A DNA stretch of 64,000 bases from assembly GCF_004328625.1 (NCBI RefSeq), contig NZ_CP032229.1:4154001-4218000 (forward strand), given 5' to 3'. The notes under the pieces were generated by a model, which was given only the letters and a program-made list of their open reading frames with translations, was not told where the DNA came from and did not search any database. The stretch is from Streptomyces seoulensis (GTDB lineage: Bacteria > Actinomycetota > Actinomycetes > Streptomycetales > Streptomycetaceae). Shown piece by piece: positions 16,767 through 47,783 of the stretch. The first letter of the stretch is position 1, and each line of letters starts with the position of its first letter. A program made the position numbers and the translations under genes.

Positions 16767-16936
16767 TTCATCTGTTCGCCGAAAGAATCCCGGCGACTTG
16801 GGGTAGTGAAAGGAGCAAATCCGTTCCCCAGACGGTCAGTTGTAGTGCTGAATAGGGGTGCGGGGATACGCAACGGCGCGCGCCCGGCACGGCAGGGAGG
16901 GGCGTGTTGCTCCTGGCGGTCGAGAGGGGACTGTTC

Positions 16937-18019
16937 GTGCATGCTTTCTCACGCGGCACCACATCGGCGACAGCGGTCGCGGTACCACCGTCCCTCGCGC
17001 TCCCGGTGATCGAGGACGCCTTTCCCCGGCGGCTGCACCCGTATTGGCCGAGGCTCCAGGAGAACACCCGGCGGTGGCTGCTGGAAAAACGGCTGATGCC
17101 CCCGGACAAGGTCCGCGAGTACGCCGACAACCTGTGCTACACGGACCTGATGGCCGGCTACTACCTGGGCGCCCCCGACGACGTCCTCCAGGCCATCGCC
17201 GACTACAGCGCGTGGTTCTTCGTCTGGGACGACCGGCACGACCGTGACATCGTGCACGGCCGGTCCGAGGACTGGCGGCGGCTGCGGCAGCGGCTCCATA
17301 CGGCGCTCGACGCACCCGGGGACCATCTGCACCACCAGGACGCGCTGGTAGCCGCTTTCGCGGACAGCGTCCTGCGGCTCTACGCGTTCCTGCCGCCCAC
17401 CTGGAACCAGCGGTTCGCCCGGCACTTCCACGAGGTGATCGAGGCGTACGACCGCGAGTTCGGCAACCGGGTCGCGGGCCGGGTGCCCGGCGTCGAGGAG
17501 TACCTCGCGCTCAGGCGGCTCACCTTCGCGCACTGGATATGGACCGACCTCCTGGAAGCGAGCGCCCGCTGCCAGCTCCCGGACGCGGTACGGAAGAACC
17601 CCGCCTTTCGGCGTGCGGCCCTGCTGAGCCAGGAATTCGCCGCCTGGTACAACGACCTCTGCTCGCTGCCCAAGGAGATAGCGGGCGACGAGGTGCACAA
17701 TCTCGGAATCAGCCTCATCACCCATTCCGGGCTCACCCTCGAAGAAGCAGTCGCAGAACTCCGGCGGCGCATCGAGAACTGCATCGCCGAATTCATCGAG
17801 GCCGAGCGAGAGGCGATGGAATTCGCCCGGGAACTCGACGACGGCACCATGCGCGGAAAGGAACTGAGCGCCGCCGTGCGGACCTGCGTCGGCAATATGC
17901 GGAACTGGTTCAGCACCGTCTACTGGTTCCACCACGAGTCCGGCCGCTACATGGTCGACACCTGGGAGGACCGGTCCACACCCCCGTACGTCAACAACGA
18001 AGCGGCAGGTGAGAAATGA
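16937..18019 (+). CDS. cyc1: Epi-isozizaene synthase (sesquiterpene cyclase)
   Basis: A 360-aa class I terpene synthase that cyclises farnesyl diphosphate to (+)-epi-isozizaene, precursor of the antibiotic albaflavenone. The aspartate-rich motif DDRHD is at 98-102 and the NSE/DTE Mg2+ triad is Asn239-Ser243-Glu247 (NDLCSLPKE). The C-terminal metal-pyrophosphate contact RY is in [10 protein letters not shown]. Start GTG 16937 (VHAFSRGTT) gives the known length of the S. coelicolor enzyme and follows GAGAGGGGA; an upstream ATG at 16904 in the same frame would add 11 unconserved residues. The stop overlaps the P450 start by 4 nt. Confidence 0.95.
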
Positions 18020-19386
18020 CCGTCGACGCCATCGATCCCGGGACGCGGGAAGTGGCCGAACTCAAGGACCCGCCCCTCGCCGGGGGCGCCGTCCCGGTGC
18101 TCGGGCACGGCCTGAAACTGGCCCGCGACCCGCTCGCGTTCATGTCCCAGCTGCGCGACCACGGCGAGGTGGTGCGCCTGAGGCTCGGCCCCAAGACGGT
18201 GTACGCCGTCACCGCGCCGGCGCTCACCGGCGCACTCGCGCTGAGCCCCGACTACAAGATCGACGGACCGGTGTGGGAGTCGCTGGAGGGGCTCCTCGGC
18301 AAGCAGGGGGTGGCCACGGCCAACGGCCCGCTGCACCGGCGGCAGCGGCGCACCATCCAGCCCGCCTTCCGGCTCGCCGCGATCCCCGCCTACGGGCCGA
18401 TCATGGAGGAGGAGGCGCACGCCCTCACCGAGCGCTGGCGGCCCGGCGTACCCGTCGACGCCACCTCCGAGTCGTTCCGGGTCGCGGTGCGCGTCGCGGC
18501 CCGCTGCCTGCTGCGCGGCCAGTACATGGACGAGCGCGCGGAGCGGCTCAGCACCGACCTCGGCGCCGTCTTCCGGGGCATGTACCGGCGCATGGTGCTG
18601 CCGCTGGGACCGCTGTACCGGCTGCCGTTCCCGTCCAACCGCGAATTCAACCGGGCACTGGCCGATCTGCATCTGCTGGTGGACGAGATCATCACCGAGC
18701 GGAGGGCGTCCGGTCAAAAGCCGGACGATTTGCTGACGGCTTTGCTGGAGGCGAAGGACGACAATGGCGACCCCATCAGCGAACAGGAGATCCACGACCA
18801 GGTCGTCGCCATACTCACGCCCGGAAGCGAGACAATCGCCTCCACGATCATGTGGCTGTTGCAGATCCTCGCGGACCATCCCGGGCACGCGGAGAAGGTG
18901 CGCGCGGAAGTTGAATCGGTAACCGGTGGTGCGCCGGTCGGATTCGAGCACGTACGCAGGCTGAGCCACACCAACAATGTCGTCGTCGAGGCCCTCCGAC
19001 TGCGGCCCGCCGTATGGATATTGACGCGTCGCGCACTCACCGACACGGCACTCGGTGCCTATCGCATTCCGGCCGGGGCGGACATCATCTACAGCCCCTA
19101 CGCGATTCAGCGCGACGCCCGTTCCTACGCCCGCCACCTCGACTTCGACCCCGACCGGTGGCTGCCGGAGCGGGCCGAGGAGGTGCCGAAGTACGCCATG
19201 GCGCCCTTCAGCGTCGGCAACCGCAAGTGTCCCAGCGACCACTTCTCGATGGCCCAACTGAGCCTGATCGTCGCGGCGATCTCGGCGAAGTACCGGTTCC
19301 GTCAGGTCGAGGACTCGGACGCCAGTACCCGTGTGGGCATCACCCTGCGCCCGCACCGGCTGCTGGTCGAACCCCGGGAGTGGTGA
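18016..19386 (+). CDS. Cytochrome P450 CYP170A-type, albaflavenone monooxygenase
   Basis: A 456-aa P450 coupled to the synthase by an ATGA overlap. Motifs: I-helix [12 protein letters not shown] (~266-277), ExxR as Glu325-Arg328, and heme loop [13 protein letters not shown] with Cys405. The heme loop has Pro-Ser where most P450s have x-Gly, a CYP170 trait. In S. coelicolor CYP170A1 oxidises epi-isozizaene twice to albaflavenone and has a second, farnesene synthase activity. The acidic motif for that activity, DDNGD, is present at 248-252. Electron donors are not encoded nearby. Confidence 0.93.
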
Positions 19387-38027: not shown

Positions 38028-39137
38028 CTACTCCTCCACCAGGAGCTTCTCCCGCAGCTGGGCCAGGGTGCGGGCCAGCAGCCGGGAGACGTGCATCTGC
38101 GAGATGCCGACCTCCTGCGCGATCTGCGACTGGGTCATGTTGCCGAAGAACCGCAGCAGCAGGATGCGCTTCTCACGCGGCGGGAGGTCCTCCAGCAGCG
38201 GCTTGAGCGACTCCCGGTACTCCACCCCCTCCAGCGCCTCGTCCTCCGCGCCGAGGGTGTCGGCGACCGCCGGGGACTCGTCGTCGGTGTCGGGGACGTC
38301 CAGCGACAGCGTCGAGTACGCGTTCGCCGACTCCAGCCCCTCCAGCACCTCCTCCTCGGAGATCGCCAGCTTCTGGGCCAGCTCGTGCACCGTGGGGGAG
38401 CGGCCGTGCAGCTGCGACAGCTCGGCCGTCGCCGTGGTCAGCGCGAGCCGCAGCTCCTGGAGCCGGCGCGGCACCCGGACCGCCCAGCCCTTGTCGCGGA
38501 AGTGCCGCTTGATCTCCCCGACGACCGTGGGAGTGGCGTACGTGGAGAACTCCACGCCCCGCTCCGGGTCGAACCGGTCCACCGACTTGATCAGGCCGAT
38601 GGTGGCGACCTGGGTCAGGTCGTCCAGCGGCTCGCCCCGGTTGCGGAAGCGGCGCGCCAGATGCTCCACGAGCGGCAGATGCATCCGGACCAGCCGGTTG
38701 CGCAGCTCCGCGTACTCCGGGCTGCCGTCCTTCATGCCGCGCAGCTCCACGAAGAGCGCCCGCGCCCCGCTGCGGTCGTGCGGGTCGTGCCGTGCCGCCC
38801 GGACGGTCTCCGCGCCCGGCGCGGTGTCCCCGGCGTATCGCTCGTGCTCGCTCATCGTCCCGCCCGTAGCCCTTCCCCGAGCCCTCGCCTCCGCGCGGTC
38901 GGCGGGCTGTTCCCCGCCGCGCTCCCCCGGAGGCGCGCTCCGTGCGGCACCCTCGCCGCCGGCCCGCGCGGAGTCGTCCTCCGGGTGGGGCCGGGCCTGC
39001 TCGGGGATGCCGTCGACGCCGTCGGCCATGTGCCGGGGGCCGTCCTGGGGGACCGCCCGCAGGCTCTCGGCCTTATTGGCCGGCAGTTCTCGCGCGCCGC
39101 GCTCTTCGTCCCGCACCGGACCGTCCCCGTTCCTCAC
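38028..39137 (-). CDS. sigH: SigB-like stress/development sigma factor SigH
   Basis: A sigma-70 factor of the SigB/F/G group. Regions 2, 3 and 4 fill the last ~250 residues: VATIGLIKSVDRFDPERGVE (region 2), GEIKRHFRDKGWAVRVPRRL, and MTQSQIAQEVGISQMHVSRL (region 4). The reading frame extends to GTG 39137, which overlaps the rshA stop as GTGA and gives 369 aa with an acidic, Pro-rich N-terminal extension of high-GC3 coding character. An internal ATG at 38855 would give 275 aa. Several SigH isoforms are known in S. coelicolor. It governs osmotic stress and septation and is held by the anti-sigma factor encoded just upstream. Confidence 0.92.
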   Translation of the reverse strand: MRNGDGPVRDEERGARELPANKAESLRAVPQDGPRHMADGVDGIPEQARPHPEDDSARAGGEGAARSAPPGERGGEQPADRAEARARGRATGGTMSEHERYAGDTAPGAETVRAARHDPHDRSGARALFVELRGMKDGSPEYAELRNRLVRMHLPLVEHLARRFRNRGEPLDDLTQVATIGLIKSVDRFDPERGVEFSTYATPTVVGEIKRHFRDKGWAVRVPRRLQELRLALTTATAELSQLHGRSPTVHELAQKLAISEEEVLEGLESANAYSTLSLDVPDTDDESPAVADTLGAEDEALEGVEYRESLKPLLEDLPPREKRILLLRFFGNMTQSQIAQEVGISQMHVSRLLARTLAQLREKLLVEE

Positions 39138-39562
39138 GCCGGGCCGGGGCCCGCGCCGCGCTGTTTGTAGAGACTGATCGACACGGTCCGGTCCTCGTCG
39201 ACGGCGGAGGACACCTTGCCCGCCAGGGCCGACAGCACGGTCCAGGCGAACGTGTCGCGCGACGGGGCGTGGCCGTCGGTGGTCGGAGCAGACACCGTGA
39301 CCTCCAGCGAGTCGTCGACGAGGCGGAAGACGCAGCTCAGTACCGAGCCCGGCACGGCCTGCTGGAGCAGGATCGCGCAAGCCTCGTCGACCGCGATGCG
39401 CAGGTCCTCGATCTCGTCCAGGGTGAAGTCCAAGCGGGCCGCCAGACCGGCCGTGGCCGTCCGCAGCACCGACAGGTAGGCACCCGCGGCCGGAAGCCGG
39501 ACTTCCACGAAGTCCTGGTTCGCCGTGGGCTCGCCTGCGATCTGGGACACCCTCACCTCCAT
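39134..39562 (-). CDS. rshA: RsbW-like anti-sigma factor (RshA/UshX)
   Basis: A 142-aa GHKL-type protein of the RsbW/SpoIIAB family. The N-box helix is DLRIAVDEACAILLQQAVPG; the G1-type region that follows is degenerate (VSAPTTDGHAPSRDT), so kinase activity against an anti-anti-sigma factor is doubtful. It binds SigH, whose gene starts within its own stop codon. Known in S. coelicolor as RshA/PrsH/UshX. No Shine-Dalgarno is obvious before the ATG. A perfect BldD box lies 117 nt upstream. Confidence 0.9.
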   Translation of the reverse strand: MEVRVSQIAGEPTANQDFVEVRLPAAGAYLSVLRTATAGLAARLDFTLDEIEDLRIAVDEACAILLQQAVPGSVLSCVFRLVDDSLEVTVSAPTTDGHAPSRDTFAWTVLSALAGKVSSAVDEDRTVSISLYKQRGAGPGPA

Positions 39563-39678
39563 GGTGGTACAAGCTTCACGGGGCCGAGGGTCGCCCCCCG
39601 GGGTAACGCGTACGTGGTTCCGCGGTGACGCTATCGCGCCCGGAACGTTCCTGTCCCCGCGCCCCCGGCCCCCTGGCG

Positions 39679-42663: not shown

Positions 42664-43257
42664 TCAGCCCTTCAGCTGGGCCTTGATCCGGGAGCGGAGC
42701 GAGGCCATGGTGAAGCCGCGCGGGTCGATCTTGCCGGGCTGCCATTCGAGGTGGCCGATGACCGAGCGTTCCGTCCAGCCGTGGTGGCGGCAGATCGCGG
42801 CGGCGGCCCGCACGATCGCCTCCATCTGGGCGTCGGGCCAGGGGTCCTTGCCGTCGCCGAGGTTCTCGCACTCGAAGCCGTAGAAGTACCGGTTGCCGTC
42901 GGTGTTGGACTCGTTGTCCGGCGGCAGGCCCTTCTCGGCGATGACCGCGCGCAGCACTTCGTCGTCACCGAGTCCGGCGTGGTTGGCGCGGCCGTAGCCG
43001 ACCAGGTGGACCTTGCCGTCCTTGGTGATCACGCCATGGCAGAGCGGGCCGGGAAGCTCGTCATAGCCCTCGCGGCACATTTCCACGGTGCGGGCGCTGC
43101 CGCTGGTCACCGTGTGGTGGATCATGACGCCGTGCATCGGGCCCCAGGGGCCCTTGTGGTTGCGGTTGTGGGTCCGCCAGCTGCCGACCTCCACGACCTT
43201 GACGCCCTCGGCCTTCAGCGCGCTGAGAAAACCGCTTGCGGACATGGGTGGGGACAT
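42664..43257 (-). CDS. N-acetylmuramoyl-L-alanine amidase (amidase_2/PGRP-type)
   Basis: A 197-aa zinc amidase. Zinc ligands lie in VMIHHTVTSG and in IGHLEWQPGKIDPRGF, whose PGKIDP is the usual ending of the catalytic loop; YGFECENLGDG is the mid-domain motif. There is no signal peptide, so export is not obvious; relatives are often phage-like or cytoplasmic recycling enzymes. Start ATG 43257 (MSPPMSASGF) is clearly set by AAGGAGG at ideal spacing. No cell-wall-binding domain is attached. Confidence 0.88.
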   Translation of the reverse strand: MSPPMSASGFLSALKAEGVKVVEVGSWRTHNRNHKGPWGPMHGVMIHHTVTSGSARTVEMCREGYDELPGPLCHGVITKDGKVHLVGYGRANHAGLGDDEVLRAVIAEKGLPPDNESNTDGNRYFYGFECENLGDGKDPWPDAQMEAIVRAAAAICRHHGWTERSVIGHLEWQPGKIDPRGFTMASLRSRIKAQLKG

Positions 43258-43553
43258 GGCCGCCTCCTTCGTGCTCTTCGGGAAGTTTTGGACGGACCGG
43301 CCGTCGCGACCCATCCGTCACGGTGCTTGTACCGACGTACGGGGGCGGGAATCACATCGTTCGCTCGCTGTGCGAGCCGATCCGGCCAATTCCGGGTCGG
43401 GGTCGACGGAGTCCCCCAGTCTGCCCAGTAGTCCGATGATCCATTCCCCTTCTTTCGGGTAATGGTGCGAGCACGTTCCGTGATGGAAAGCTCAGTCGTG
43501 AGACCGGTGCCAGGCGAGATTCGGCACGGGCAAACATGGGAGGGCAATTCCTT

Positions 43554-44960
43554 ATGTCGGTAGGCGAAGAGGTCCGCACGGAACAGGGCAAGCCGCAGCA
43601 GTCCCTGGGCACGGCGGCCGCGCGGAACCTGGCCACCACCACCAAGTCCGCACCCCAGATGCAGGAGATCAGCTCCCGCTGGCTGCTGCGCAACCTGCCC
43701 TGGGTGGACGTCCAGGGCGGCGCGTACCGGGTGAACCGGAGGCTGACGTACACCGTGGGGGACGGTCGCATCACCTTCGTGAAGACCGGGGACCAGGTCG
43801 AGGTCATCCCGGCCGAGCTGGGCGAACTGCCCGCGCTGCGCTCGTACGAGGACGAAGAGGTACTGACCGAGCTGGCCCGGCGCTGCCGGCAGCGCGACAT
43901 CGCGGCGGGCGAGGTGATCAGCTCCTTCGGCACCCGCACCGAGGAGGTGTACCTGCTCGCCCACGGCCGCGTGGAGAAGGTCGGCACGGGCCCGTACGGC
44001 GACGACGCGGTGCTCGAAGTCCTGGCCGACGGCGCCTACTTCGGCGAGGCGGCGCTGATCGACCCCGACGCCATCTGGGAGTACACCGCCCGCGCCGCCA
44101 CCGCGTGCGTGGTGCTCGTGCTCAGCCGCTCCGACTTCGAGCAGGTCGCCGAGCGCTCCGACTCCCTGAGCGAACACGTCGGCCGGCTGCGCGCGCTCCC
44201 GGACCAGCGGACCAACAAGTACGGCGAGAAGGAGGTCGAGCTGGCGGCGGGCCACTCCGGCGAGCCCGACATCCCGCACACCTTCGTCGACTACGAGGCG
44301 CGTCCGCGCGAGTACGAACTCAGCATCGCCCAGACCGTGCTGCGCATCCACTCCCGCGTGGCCGACCTCTACAACCAGCCGATGAACCAGACCGAGCAGC
44401 AGCTGCGGCTCACGGTCGAGGCGCTGAAGGAGCGCCAGGAACACGAGCTGGTCAACAACCGCGAGTTCGGCCTCCTGAACAACTGCGAGTACGACCAGCG
44501 GCTCCAGCCGCACGACGGCGTCCCCGGCCCGGACGACCTGGACGAGCTGCTCAGCCGCCGCCGGGGCACCAAGTTCCTGCTCGCCCACCCGCGCGCCATC
44601 GCGGCGATTGGGCGCGAGCTGAACAAGCGCGGACTGGTCCCGGAGACCATCGACGTGGGCGGCAACCGCATCCCCACCTGGCGCGGGGTGCCGATCTACC
44701 CGTGCAACAAGATCCCGGTCAGCGAGGCCCGGACCACCTCGATCATCGCGCTGCGCACCGGCGAGGCCGAGCAGGGCGTGATCGGCCTGCGCCAGTCCGG
44801 CCTCCCGGACGAGATCGAGCCCAGCCTGTCGGTGCGCTTCATGGGCATCAACGAACAGGCCGTCATCAACTACCTGGTGACCGCCTACTACTCGGCCGCC
44901 GTCCTGGTGCCGGACGCGCTGGGCGTGCTGGAGAACGTGGAGATCGGCCGGTGGCGGTGA
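43554..44960 (+). CDS. Family 2B encapsulin shell protein with cyclic-nucleotide-binding insert (EshA-like)
   Basis: A 468-aa protein. It has an encapsulin (HK97-fold) shell split by a cNMP-binding domain: an N-terminal arm and start of the shell fold at ~1-90, the cNMP barrel at ~95-215 with cassette [20 protein letters not shown] (it lacks the Arg that classical cAMP-binding proteins use), and the remaining HK97 fold to the end. This is the layout of family 2B encapsulins, including the EshA proteins of S. griseus and S. coelicolor that influence development and ppGpp. GGGAGGG precedes ATG 43554. The next gene, a polyprenyl synthase, is a typical cargo partner. Confidence 0.9.
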
Positions 44961-45036
44961 CACGGCCGCCCGCTTCCCGTCCCGGCGGCCGGCGCCGGGG
45001 CGGGGGTCCCACCGTGCTCGTCGGCGAGGGAGGGCC

Positions 45037-46158
45037 ATGAGCGAATCCATCGTGGAGACCGGGGAGTGCCCCGCGCCGGTCTCGTCGGACGGGGTGCCCC
45101 GGCCACGCCGGGCGGCGGACGACTCGCCGGGGCACGAGGCGGTCGTCCTGCTGGAGCGCACCCGGGGTGTCGTGGACCCCGAACTACGCGCCGCGGTCGA
45201 GTCGTTGCCGGGTCAGCTGCGCCGGGTCGCGCTCTACCACTTCGGCTGGAGCCACGCGGACGGCACCCCGGCCGCGGGCAACGCGGGCAAGGCGATCCGT
45301 CCGGCCCTCGTCCTCGCCGCGGCGTCCGCGCTGGGCGGCGCGGAGGCGCGGACGGCGGCCGTACGGGCCGCGGCGGCGGTCGAACTGGTCCACAACTTCA
45401 CGCTGTTGCACGACGACGTGATGGACCGCGACACCACCCGCCGGCACCGGCCCACGGCCTGGACCGTGTTCGGCGACCCCGACGCGATCCTGGCCGGGGA
45501 CGCCCTGCAAGCCCTGGCGCTGCGCCTGCTCGCCGACGATCCGCACCCGGCGTCCGGCCGGGCGGCGGCCCGGCTCGCGGAGTGCGTGATCGAACTGTGC
45601 GCCGGACAGCAGACCGACACCGCCCTGGAACAGCGCGCACCCGGCGAGGTCGGCCTCGACGAGGTGCTCGCCATGGCCGAGGCGAAGACCGGTGCCCTGC
45701 TCGGCTGCGCCTGCGCCCTGGGCGCGCTGTACGCGGGCGCGGAGGACGAGGTGGTGGCGGCGCTGGACACCTTCGGCCGGCAGGCCGGGCTGGCGTTCCA
45801 GCTCATCGACGATGTGATCGGCATATGGGGCGACCCCCGGCGTACCGGCAAGCCGGCCGGTGCCGACCTCGCCGTCCGCAAGAAGTCGTTGCCCGTGGTC
45901 GCCGCGCTGACCTCCGGTACCCCGGCGGGGACCGAACTGGCCGCGCTGTACGCCCGCCCGCACACGGCAGGGGACAGCGGCGACATCGCCCGTGCGACGG
46001 TCGCGGTGGAGCAGGCGGGCGGCCGGGACTGGGCCCAGGCGGAGGCGGCGGACCGGATGGCGCGCGCGGTCCAGGAACTGGCGCGGGCGGTCCCGGCTCC
46101 GGAGGCGGCGGGGGGTCTGCTGGCCCTGGCGGAGTTCGTGACCCGGCGCAGTAGCTGA
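45037..46158 (+). CDS. Polyprenyl diphosphate synthase, likely encapsulin cargo
   Basis: A 373-aa trans-isoprenyl diphosphate synthase. The first Asp-rich motif is LLHDDVMDRDTTRRHRPT and the second is QLIDDVIGIWGD, both intact. Chain length (GGPP, FPP or other) cannot be told from sequence alone. Compared with free synthases it has an N-terminal extension of ~45 residues, rich in Ser, Pro, Asp and Glu (PAPVSSDGVPRPRRAADDSP) and probably disordered, like the targeting segments of family 2 encapsulin cargo. The start ATG is 76 nt after the shell gene with GGGAGGG upstream. A strong terminator ends the operon. Confidence 0.9.
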   Translation: MSESIVETGECPAPVSSDGVPRPRRAADDSPGHEAVVLLERTRGVVDPELRAAVESLPGQLRRVALYHFGWSHADGTPAAGNAGKAIRPALVLAAASALGGAEARTAAVRAAAAVELVHNFTLLHDDVMDRDTTRRHRPTAWTVFGDPDAILAGDALQALALRLLADDPHPASGRAAARLAECVIELCAGQQTDTALEQRAPGEVGLDEVLAMAEAKTGALLGCACALGALYAGAEDEVVAALDTFGRQAGLAFQLIDDVIGIWGDPRRTGKPAGADLAVRKKSLPVVAALTSGTPAGTELAALYARPHTAGDSGDIARATVAVEQAGGRDWAQAEAADRMARAVQELARAVPAPEAAGGLLALAEFVTRRSS

Positions 46159-46169
46159 GCGTCCTCACC

Positions 46170-46202
46170 GGGCCCCGCGCATCCCCACGGTGCGCGGGGC
46201 CC
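46170..46202 (+). terminator. Terminator after the encapsulin operon
   Basis: Perfect 12-bp inverted repeat (46170-46181 with 46191-46202), 11 nt after the synthase stop. Confidence 0.85.
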
Positions 46203-46210
46203 ACCCGTTC

Positions 46211-46216
46211 TACCCT
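46211..46216 (+). promoter_or_regulatory. -10 element of a probable leaderless promoter (zinc-ribbon/DUF952 gene)
   Basis: TACCCT, 6 nt before ATG 46223, directly behind the preceding terminator. Confidence 0.5.
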
Positions 46217-46222
46217 GGTCTC

Positions 46223-46729
46223 ATGGACAGGGAAGCCCACGTCTGTCCCGCCTGTGGCGAGTCCGTCGACATGGTCGCCGGGCGCCGCAAGACGCTGGGC
46301 GCGTGGGTCCCGGTGTGGAGACCGGGACCGTGCCGCAACCCGGACTGCGCGTCGGCCCGTAGCGTGGCCTCCATGACCCAGCAGCCCGAGGCCCGGCAGC
46401 CCGAGATCCTCCACCTCACCGAACGCGCCCTCTGGGAGGCGGCCCGCGAGCAGGGCTCGTACGAGGTCTCCACCCGGGGCCGCACCCTGGAGGAGGTCGG
46501 CTACATTCACTTCTCCACCCGCGCCCAACTCCCGCGCGTGGCCGCCTTCCTGTACGGCGAGGAGCCCGGCCGGGACGACCTCGTGGTCCTGGTGGTCGAC
46601 CCGGCCCTGCTGGACGCCCCGCTGAGGTACGAGCCGATGCCACCGGCGGGGGAGGAGTTCCCGCACGTGTACGGGGCGCTGCCGGTGTCGGCGGTGGTGG
46701 ACGTGGAGCCGTGGAAGGCGGCCGAGTAG
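46223..46729 (+). CDS. DUF952 protein with N-terminal zinc-ribbon-like segment
   Basis: A 168-aa frame with two parts. Residues 1-50 contain CPACGESVD, KTLGAWVPVWRPGPC and a CRNPDC pair, a small four-Cys segment that I recognise as a free-standing protein in other streptomycetes. Residues 51-168 are a DUF952 domain (EILHLTERALWEAAREQGSY, YIHFSTRAQLPRVA), a fold related to ADP-ribosyl-type or glutathione-transferase-like proteins of unknown function. ATG 46373 at the DUF952 start has its own leaderless-type -10 (TAGCGT at 46360). So both a fusion and a separate shorter protein of 118 aa may be made. Confidence 0.75.
   Translation: MDREAHVCPACGESVDMVAGRRKTLGAWVPVWRPGPCRNPDCASARSVASMTQQPEARQPEILHLTERALWEAAREQGSYEVSTRGRTLEEVGYIHFSTRAQLPRVAAFLYGEEPGRDDLVVLVVDPALLDAPLRYEPMPPAGEEFPHVYGALPVSAVVDVEPWKAAE
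46360..46365 (+). promoter_or_regulatory. Internal -10 element before the DUF952 domain
   Basis: TAGCGT, 7 nt before the in-frame ATG at 46373; no Shine-Dalgarno. Confidence 0.4.
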
Positions 46730-46739
46730 GCCCTTCGGG

Positions 46740-47783
46740 TCAGGACTCCAGGCGCCGGCGGTCCTCCTCGTCCCAGGTGCGGGTGTCGCGGGGCTCGACG
46801 TAGGGCTCCTCGTCGGCCGGGTGACCGCCGGCGATGGCGCGGTGGCGGCTCATCTCCGCGTCGAACTCCAGGCCGAGCAGGATCGCCAGGTTGGTGAGCC
46901 ACAGCCACACCAGGAAGACGATCACGCCCGCGATGGCGCCGTAGGTCTTGTTGTAGGAGGAGAAGTTCGCGACGTACAGCGCGAAGGCGGCCGAGGCGAC
47001 CAGCCAGACCAGCAGGGCGAGGAAGCTGCCCGGGGTGATCCAGCGGATGCTGCGGATCTTGGCGTTCGGGGTCGCCCAGAACAGGATCGCGATCATGAGC
47101 GTGACCAGGACGGCGAGCACGGGCCACTTGGCGATCGACCACACCGTCAGGAACGAGTCGCCGACGCCCAGCGTGGTGCCCACCCGGCGGGCCACGCTGC
47201 CGGTGAGGACGACGATCAGCGCGCTGATCACGGCGATGACCATGAGCACCACGGTCACCCCGAGCCGCACGGGCAGCAGCTTCCACACCGGGCGGCCCTC
47301 GGGCACGTCGTACACCGCGTTGGCGCTGCGGATGAAGGCGGCCACATAGCCGGAGGCCGACCACACCGCGAGCGCCAGGCCCACGACCGCCATGACCGAG
47401 CCGACGCCGCCCTTGCCCTGCATCTGCTGCACGGCGGCGCGCAGGACGTCGCGGGCGGGGCCGGGGGCCATCTGCTGGATGTTGTCCAGCACCTTCTGGG
47501 TCGTCGACCGGCCGACGAGCCCCAGCATCGAGACCAGCGCCAGCAGCGCCGGGAACAGCGCGAGGACGCCGTAGTAGGTCAGCGACGCCGCCCGGTCGAC
47601 GAGGTCGTCCTTCTGGAACTCCTTCAGGGTGCCCTTGAGCACCGCACCCCACGAGTGCGCGGGCAGATCCGTCAGCGAGTCCGGCGCCCGCCGCTCCACC
47701 TGCTCCGTCGGCCCGACCCGCGTCTCCTGCCCGGCCGACGCGTCCTCGTCGCGCGCCCCGAATCCACTCAGCGATTTCTCCAT
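46740..47783 (-). CDS. YihY/BrkB-family inner membrane protein
   Basis: A 347-aa protein with six TM helices and soluble, charged ends. Family landmarks are DRAASLTYYGVLALFPALLALVSM in the first helix and WKLLPVRLGVTVVLMVIAVI after it. Once annotated as ribonuclease BN, the family is not a nuclease; its function is unknown. The C-terminus carries an acidic-basic tail (EPRDTRTWDEEDRRR). It converges with the DUF952 gene (10 nt between stops). Confidence 0.88.
   Translation of the reverse strand: MEKSLSGFGARDEDASAGQETRVGPTEQVERRAPDSLTDLPAHSWGAVLKGTLKEFQKDDLVDRAASLTYYGVLALFPALLALVSMLGLVGRSTTQKVLDNIQQMAPGPARDVLRAAVQQMQGKGGVGSVMAVVGLALAVWSASGYVAAFIRSANAVYDVPEGRPVWKLLPVRLGVTVVLMVIAVISALIVVLTGSVARRVGTTLGVGDSFLTVWSIAKWPVLAVLVTLMIAILFWATPNAKIRSIRWITPGSFLALLVWLVASAAFALYVANFSSYNKTYGAIAGVIVFLVWLWLTNLAILLGLEFDAEMSRHRAIAGGHPADEEPYVEPRDTRTWDEEDRRRLES

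Follow-up and report, generated by a model that had tools for sequence, protein, structure and literature searches.

The Shell and Synthase Genes of the Locus

The window analyzed in this study is a stretch of 64,000 nucleotides from the 6.43 Mb genome of Streptomyces seoulensis (NZ_CP032229.1, positions 4154001-4218000), and the feature coordinates given below are counted from its first base. It contains a pair of genes coding for a family 2B encapsulin shell with a cyclic nucleoside monophosphate (cNMP)-binding-like domain and a trans-prenyl diphosphate synthase. An original prediction, made from the sequence alone, had proposed a shell gene followed by a prenyl synthase gene, and both were identified at that place, co-directional on the + strand and each with a product scoring over the cut-off of a curated model. 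The locus is a typical representative of a known class, a 2B shell plus a prenyl synthase, on which experiments are few. The features of the pair, including model confidence as predicted local distance difference test (pLDDT) values, were:

43554..44960, + strand: family 2B encapsulin shell, 468 aa, HK97-type with a cNMP-binding-like domain, EshA/EshB family (NF041163, PF19307, PF00027, PDB 9bhu)
43602..43637, + strand: shell N-arm, residues 17-28, near-invariant in 73 shell rows with a synthase behind and 18 others
43893..44156, + strand: cNMP-binding-like domain, residues 114-201, with Trp175 at the presumed place of the canonical phosphate-binding Arg (Pfam, row comparison)
44961..45036, + strand: intergenic gap of 76 bases, ending in purine-rich GAGGGAGGG plus CC ahead of the synthase start codon
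45037..46158, + strand: trans-prenyl diphosphate synthase, 373 aa, family 2 encapsulin cargo type (NF041169, PF00348, model pLDDT 89.9)
45037..45123, + strand: disordered N-terminal tail of the synthase, residues 1-29 (pLDDT < 50)
45130..45165, + strand: GHEAVVLLERTR, residues 32-43, start of the first helix and conserved N-terminal part of shell-linked synthases (row comparison)
45412..45426, + strand: first Asp-rich motif DDVMD, residues 126-130, with Phe121 at position -5
45808..45822, + strand: second Asp-rich motif DDVIG (DDxxG), residues 258-262 (sequence and row comparison)
46170..46202, + strand: 14-bp hairpin 3' of the synthase, likely transcript end, without a T-run (z -5.13)

The shell protein matched the NCBIfam model NF041163 (family 2B encapsulin shell) with 761.7 bits against a cut-off of 400, and the Pfam models SrpI-like PF19307 (449 bits, residues 216-466) and cNMP_binding PF00027 (residues 114-201), so that the cNMP-binding-like domain sits within the shell protein. 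The closest solved chain was PDB 9bhu (672.7 bits, residues 8-467) followed by 9bix and 9bje; by their titles, the three are family 2B shells from Streptomyces griseus and S. lydicus. The same three entries were the top fold matches of a structure model of the shell that was itself poor (15 close sequences; pLDDT 51.6, TMq 0.30), so that the fold search contributes little beyond the sequence matches. The S. griseus shell 9bhu is of the same family as the window's shell, and its own cargo is a 2-methylisoborneol synthase. A single 2B shell over the cut-off was identified in the host genome, the two other NF041163 matches reaching only 38 and 23 bits.

The synthase scored 490.2 bits against NF041169 (family 2 encapsulin nanocompartment cargo protein polyprenyl transferase; cut-off 450), and no difference from that class was found. 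It also matched PF00348, its closest solved relative was PDB 3nf2, and its fold and motifs are those of 3nf2 and the IdsB-type geranylgeranyl diphosphate (GGPP) synthases, although its score against NF045549 (IdsB GGPP synthase) of 363 bits fell below the cut-off of 475. The structure model of the synthase was good (mean pLDDT 89.9) and placed the first helix at residues 31-55.

The shell start at 43554 has GGGAGGG nine bases ahead of the start codon, and folding of the intergenic gap (from 44958) was no stabler than that of shuffled sequences (z -0.37). The suggestion that one terminator ends the pair held as far as the strong hairpin is concerned, while the T-run is absent and promoter and terminator scans of 43300-46800 gave no match, the hairpin included.

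Conservation of the Pair in Streptomyces and Other Genera

The association of the two genes was surveyed in 121 Streptomyces genomes drawn evenly, with one over-cut-off synthase examined per genome. A 2B shell over the cut-off was identified in 118 of the 121 genomes and a synthase over the NF041169 cut-off in 91. A shell gene lay directly upstream on the same strand in 89 of these 91, a count that is partly circular since NF041169 was presumably built from shell-linked proteins and that was taken from related genomes. The two exceptions were the synthases of G076 and of G112, the latter at a contig end. Unlike the window synthase, the 40 paralogues examined, which were taken from the synthase matches below the NF041169 cut-off, had no adjacent shell (0/40, with ~2.6 kb upstream and 1.5 kb downstream covered). 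Among the named loci, which are the best 80 of 550 confirmed relatives, the shell was directly upstream in 79. The exception, L225, is the same stretch as the locus of genome G076 (L278) considered below. The closest named relative among the matches listed was Streptomyces bauhiniae, with 97% over the synthase core. The synthase of the linked pair is shell-tied across the genus, more than by chance.

Phylogenetic analysis of the shells included 91 rows, consisting of 58 of the 89 linked loci, 12 of the 30 best-scoring shells, the window, 18 shells with no synthase within 1.5 kb on either side, and two non-genus shells (L260 was dropped as too short, and 9bhu itself was not in the tree). The 71 genus shells that are followed by a synthase, that of the window included, represent 64 distinct sequences and formed one clade (100/100). 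All 18 shells without a synthase in the flanks fell outside this clade, with 10 of the 18 having a second shell in the flank such that a synthase further off is possible, and the two linked non-genus shells (L251 and L259) were also outside it. The synthase tree was built from 62 selected rows (26 of the 91 genus synthases, 17 of the 40 paralogues, 17 non-genus sequences, and two other synthases of the host genome). The Streptomyces linked synthases again formed one clade (100/100), which also held the synthase of G076; no shell gene lies beside that synthase, which points to a probable secondary loss of the shell. Three linked synthases from another family fell in a different supported clade mixed with unlinked ones, and the pairing therefore had more than one origin or underwent several losses.

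Further arrangements were observed outside the genus. L285 carries shells and a prenyl synthase that is followed by an IspH (LytB) domain, and L286 and L287 carry shells and a prenyl synthase with a two-domain terpene synthase nearby, an arrangement like the operons with both a terpene cyclase and a polyprenyl transferase (PT) described in PMC12407261. Two shell genes each were present in L285 and L286, and the shell of L287 is cut by the contig end.

Catalytic Motifs and Predicted Product of the Synthase

The two DDxxD motifs that had been described as intact were confirmed for the first motif, DDVMD, while the second is DDVIG and so of the DDxxG form. Gly262 was fixed in all 88 shell-linked rows (the window included) and in all 40 paralogues, from which DDxxG is the normal form in these synthases; the linked alignment omits L065 and L074, for which no shell was shown, and L117, whose sequence contains N. 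The Asp residues of both motifs were invariant across all 128 compared rows, the window included (88/88 linked). Phe121, five residues ahead of the first Asp motif, was present in 88/88 linked rows and 38/40 paralogues, and under the chain-length rule, a Phe at this position favors a C20 product. The synthase is thus predicted to form a short chain of C15-C20, with GGPP favored because the Phe at -5 is shared with paralogues related to the IdsB GGPP synthases of NCBI. Three further PF00348 synthases were identified in the host genome, so the shell-linked enzyme need not serve housekeeping.

The cNMP-Binding-Like Domain of the Shell

The cassette of the shell had been predicted to lack the canonical Arg, and this was upheld, with Trp175 found instead at what we take to be the Arg position from hand alignment to CRP. 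The phosphate-binding Arg that marks a functional cyclic nucleotide-binding domain is accordingly missing from the shell. Trp was present at this position in 72 of the 73 shell rows with a synthase behind and in 17 of the 18 other shell rows, and the exchange is therefore a family trait and not a quirk of the window gene. In PMC12407261, a family 2B cNMP domain is stated not to bind cyclic nucleotides, the domains are located above the two-fold pore, and the two-fold pores of a solved 2B shell measure 14 x 60 Å.

A Dedicated Cargo Enzyme as the Probable Role of the Synthase

The family models, the adjacency in 89/91 genus and 79/80 named loci, the single shell clade, the recurrent pairing, and the kept Asp motifs argue that the locus codes for a family 2B shell of the kind found in most Streptomyces together with a prenyl diphosphate synthase that is probably its dedicated cargo. 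A likely cargo status of the synthase, as in the original prediction, is supported at the sequence level and had already been proposed in PMC8346489, PMC8049743, and NCBIfam. The claim that 2B shells are best known with terpene cyclases fits the literature unevenly, as the 2021 survey lists 904 terpene cyclase operons versus 900 PT operons, 888 of the latter in Actinobacteria (Andreas and Giessen, PMC8346489), and family 2b shells are stated to neighbor a polyprenyl diphosphate synthase gene most often (PMC8049743). The 2B shell with a prenyl synthase is consequently among the commonest family 2B operons. No isolated, loaded 2B shell with a prenyl synthase was found among open-license publications searched by title and abstract start, and one may exist.

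The window pair equals the PT operons of PMC8346489 in its internal cNMP-like domain, the adjacent synthase with a disordered N-terminus, and its place in Actinobacteria. It differs in a shorter tail and in having relatives with tails of at most 16-19 residues, and in nothing basic. The EshA system has a different neighbor from the window's prenyl synthase, namely the 2-methylisoborneol synthase beside the shell in the eshA-mib operon of S. venezuelae (PMC6428758).

Under the cargo reading, shell and synthase would be co-transcribed and about 60 subunits would close into a T=1 shell, which we assume by analogy with solved relatives. The synthase would sit in the shell interior, bound through conserved surfaces on the first helix and the folded part, and the variable disordered tail would act as a spacer or weak helper. 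Isopentenyl diphosphate and an allylic diphosphate could enter via the wide two-fold pore, which lies below the cNMP-like domains and may be gated by them in response to a ligand that would not be a classical cyclic nucleotide. The product would be a C15-C20 diphosphate, and with the shell the cell would have a separate supply of it, timed by development.

The N-Terminal Tail and Candidate Loading Surfaces

The N-terminal extension of ~45 residues that had been proposed is present as a disordered tail, and its length was overestimated, with ~30 disordered residues and 37 residues before LLERTR in the first helix. This compares with 50-100 residues stated for this cargo in PMC8346489. Deleting residues 2-45, as had been suggested, would take 15 residues of the first helix (31-55) and so would not be a clean loading test.

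Eight of the 89 linked Streptomyces synthases have at most 16-19 residues ahead of the LLERTR helix. The bound is an in-frame stop in four of them and the stop codon of the shell gene in the other four, where the synthase start is assumed not to be inside the shell gene. The frame ahead of the helix was open up to 151 residues in other linked Streptomyces synthases and up to 246 residues among the named loci. Since the ribosome-binding score mis-set several starts, the statement on tail length uses these bounds only. One such automatic choice is that of L197 (upstream of 5001), where the best-scoring start lies ~180 residues upstream and gives a tail of PETPPLHGPAPR-like repeats; the synthase tail of L084 is similarly enlarged by ESDP/GTDT-like repeats. 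Such repeats suggest that the enlarged tails of L197 and L084 are a spacer under little sequence constraint. Measured as the position of the closest ATG to the same helix and not as established starts, the tails of the 40 unlinked paralogues were 23-41 residues in 23 cases, with the ATG nearer in eight, further in three, and not present in the stretch in six. The bounds and the paralogue ATGs together indicate that shell-linked enzymes are not distinguished by having a tail, by its length, or by its Pro/Ser richness, and the proposed role of the Pro/Ser/acidic extension as a mark of cargo was not supported. The question of loading is thereby narrowed, since a long Pro/Ser tail cannot be a common requirement and candidate residues can be named.

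The candidate residues lie at the first helix and across the core of the enzyme. A GxEA pattern at the first helix was typical of the linked synthases (G32 in 85%, E34 in 83%, and A35 in 99% versus 3%, 0%, and 25% in the paralogues), and 24 core columns were at least 95% fixed in the 88 linked synthases and at most 10% in the 40 paralogues, six of them between 334 and 370. The 24 specificity columns may reflect divergence of the subfamily rather than contact with the shell. These data agree with and extend PMC8346489, in which no common targeting motif was found for PT cargo.

A shared N-terminal tag was sought in 96 loci whose shells are 80% or more identical to that of the window, and none common to them was found. 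The candidate, an MxExxTET-like start (MAEFMTET-like), was present in 49/96 loci with 47/96 relatives lacking the pattern. It was absent from the other two frames and had a mean of 0.27 and a maximum of 2 occurrences in 200 shuffles. The candidate was rejected as a tag, its codons being nearly as fixed as its residues (Thr6 is ACG in 46/49) and the window start MSESIVET missing the pattern.

An LGT motif was absent from the synthases (0/91 cores, 0/89 shell-to-helix regions, and 0/80 named loci). A resemblance was noted between GLGTSAAR in the two-domain terpene synthases beside shells (L286 at 4886 and 3719; L287 at 4789 and 3634, - strand) and the shell N-arm SLGT[SA]AARNL. A statement of this mimicry was not found in two papers searched for 'mimic', and the idea of a cyclase motif mimicking the shell N-arm was weakened by SGPGTSAA at the same linker of an unlinked two-domain synthase of the host (L166).

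A variant of the cargo reading, with odds that overlap it, is that the disordered tail is itself the loading signal through its composition and not a fixed motif. This is a tentative possibility that draws on the disordered tails described in family 2 cargos, for which a part in loading has been suggested (PMC8346489), on the disorder predicted by the structure model of the window synthase, and on the MAEFMTET-like starts in 49 of the 96 loci. It is opposed by the eight linked synthases with at most 16-19 residues, by the many shell-less paralogues with an ATG 23-41 residues ahead, and by the 49 starts being nearly fixed in their codons as well, with MSESIVET of the window outside the pattern. 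A more far-reaching version of the cargo reading is that EshB-type compartments load the stand-alone prenyl synthase by its folded body, which would consist of the first helix GxEAaxLL plus the linked-type C-terminal helix, and not by a disordered tag as proposed for terpene-cyclase cargos. Such compartments would then serve as a store or source of C15-C20 diphosphate that is free of cyclase, timed by development, and gated by a ligand other than a classical cyclic nucleotide; this combined proposal is speculative and rather unlikely to hold as a whole.

Could the Synthase Act Outside the Shell?

Several observations weigh against a cargo role of the synthase. In genome G076, the synthase gene is retained in its usual position beside the amidase gene with no shell gene there; the only 2B shell of G076 over the cut-off is encoded at another site and is closest to the non-synthase type, and the enzyme can hence persist unshelled. 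In the draft genome G112, the synthase is at the start of one contig and a linked-type shell (L284, G112:C492) is on another short contig, on which no synthase match was found within 1.6 kb downstream of the shell. A class-wide sample gave 17/148 genomes passing the synthase cut-off, seven of them non-Streptomyces; four of these seven synthases had no shell in 16-18 kb and three were directly behind a shell. Genes upstream of the pair are also often kept, with a PALP match in 73/80 and an amidase match in 61/80 named loci, which makes the adjacency partly general synteny. The lack of a common tag among the 96 loci with similar shells points in the same direction.

These data can be accommodated if shell and synthase are co-expressed neighbors, with the enzyme cytoplasmic or docked on the outside and the shell having a role of its own such as a developmental or guanosine tetraphosphate (ppGpp)-linked one as in EshA, which is described as stimulating ppGpp accumulation (PMC9739823). 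The shell-less synthase of G076, the tail without a common tag, and the synteny reaching upstream beyond the pair are all in keeping with this model. It is nevertheless unlikely in view of the 89/91 co-directional adjacency, the enzyme-specific shell clade, and the recurrence of the pairing in another family, and cysteine desulfurases and terpene cyclases, both family 2 cargo types, are among the encapsulin cargo enzymes studied (PMC12407261).

That the synthase supplies a terpene cyclase also drawn into the shell, the partner being an epi-isozizaene-type or two-domain (geosmin-type) synthase encoded elsewhere, is very improbable: two non-genus loci do combine shell, synthase, and two-domain terpene synthase, 165 operons with both terpene cyclase and PT are listed in PMC8346489, and the host has a terpene synthase plus P450 at 16904-19386 and a two-domain synthase elsewhere, but neither host locus has [GS]LGT[SAG]A or GP[TS]GLG (the two-domain one has the weaker SGPGTSAA), no cyclase was found beside the pair among the open reading frames (ORFs) of 38-52 kb, and the three PF19086 matches of the genome lie elsewhere.

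Genomic Context and Relation to EshB

The wider context of the cargo-type pair was compared with that of S. coelicolor. Approximately 24 kb upstream of the pair, a terpene synthase gene (PF19086) at 16904-18019 overlaps a cytochrome P450-like gene at 18016-19386, both on the + strand. These two genes fit SCO5222/5223, and they look like epi-isozizaene synthase with CYP170A1. From ORF translations, a SigB-type sigma factor gene and a likely anti-sigma gene are encoded at 38028-39572 on the - strand, ~4 kb upstream of the shell, and fit SCO5243/SCO5244 in the sigH gene listing (PMC9739823). Because of these two matches in gene order, the window shell is probably the orthologue of S. coelicolor EshB (SCO5249). 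The eshB gene is described as coding for a paralogue of EshA that putatively binds cyclic nucleotides, and its promoter becomes more active during development (PMC3878966). For SCO5249, log2 abundance values of 2.9, 3.2, and 2.4 are listed in a comparison of mycelia (PMC3610822). The shell of the window would thereby be tied to a gene of known developmental expression.

The neighbors of the pair were:

42664..43314, - strand: N-acetylmuramoyl-L-alanine amidase (PF01510), outside the unit, with upstream synteny often kept (the 61/80 named loci above)
46223..46729, + strand: DUF952 protein, elsewhere not consistently beside the pair

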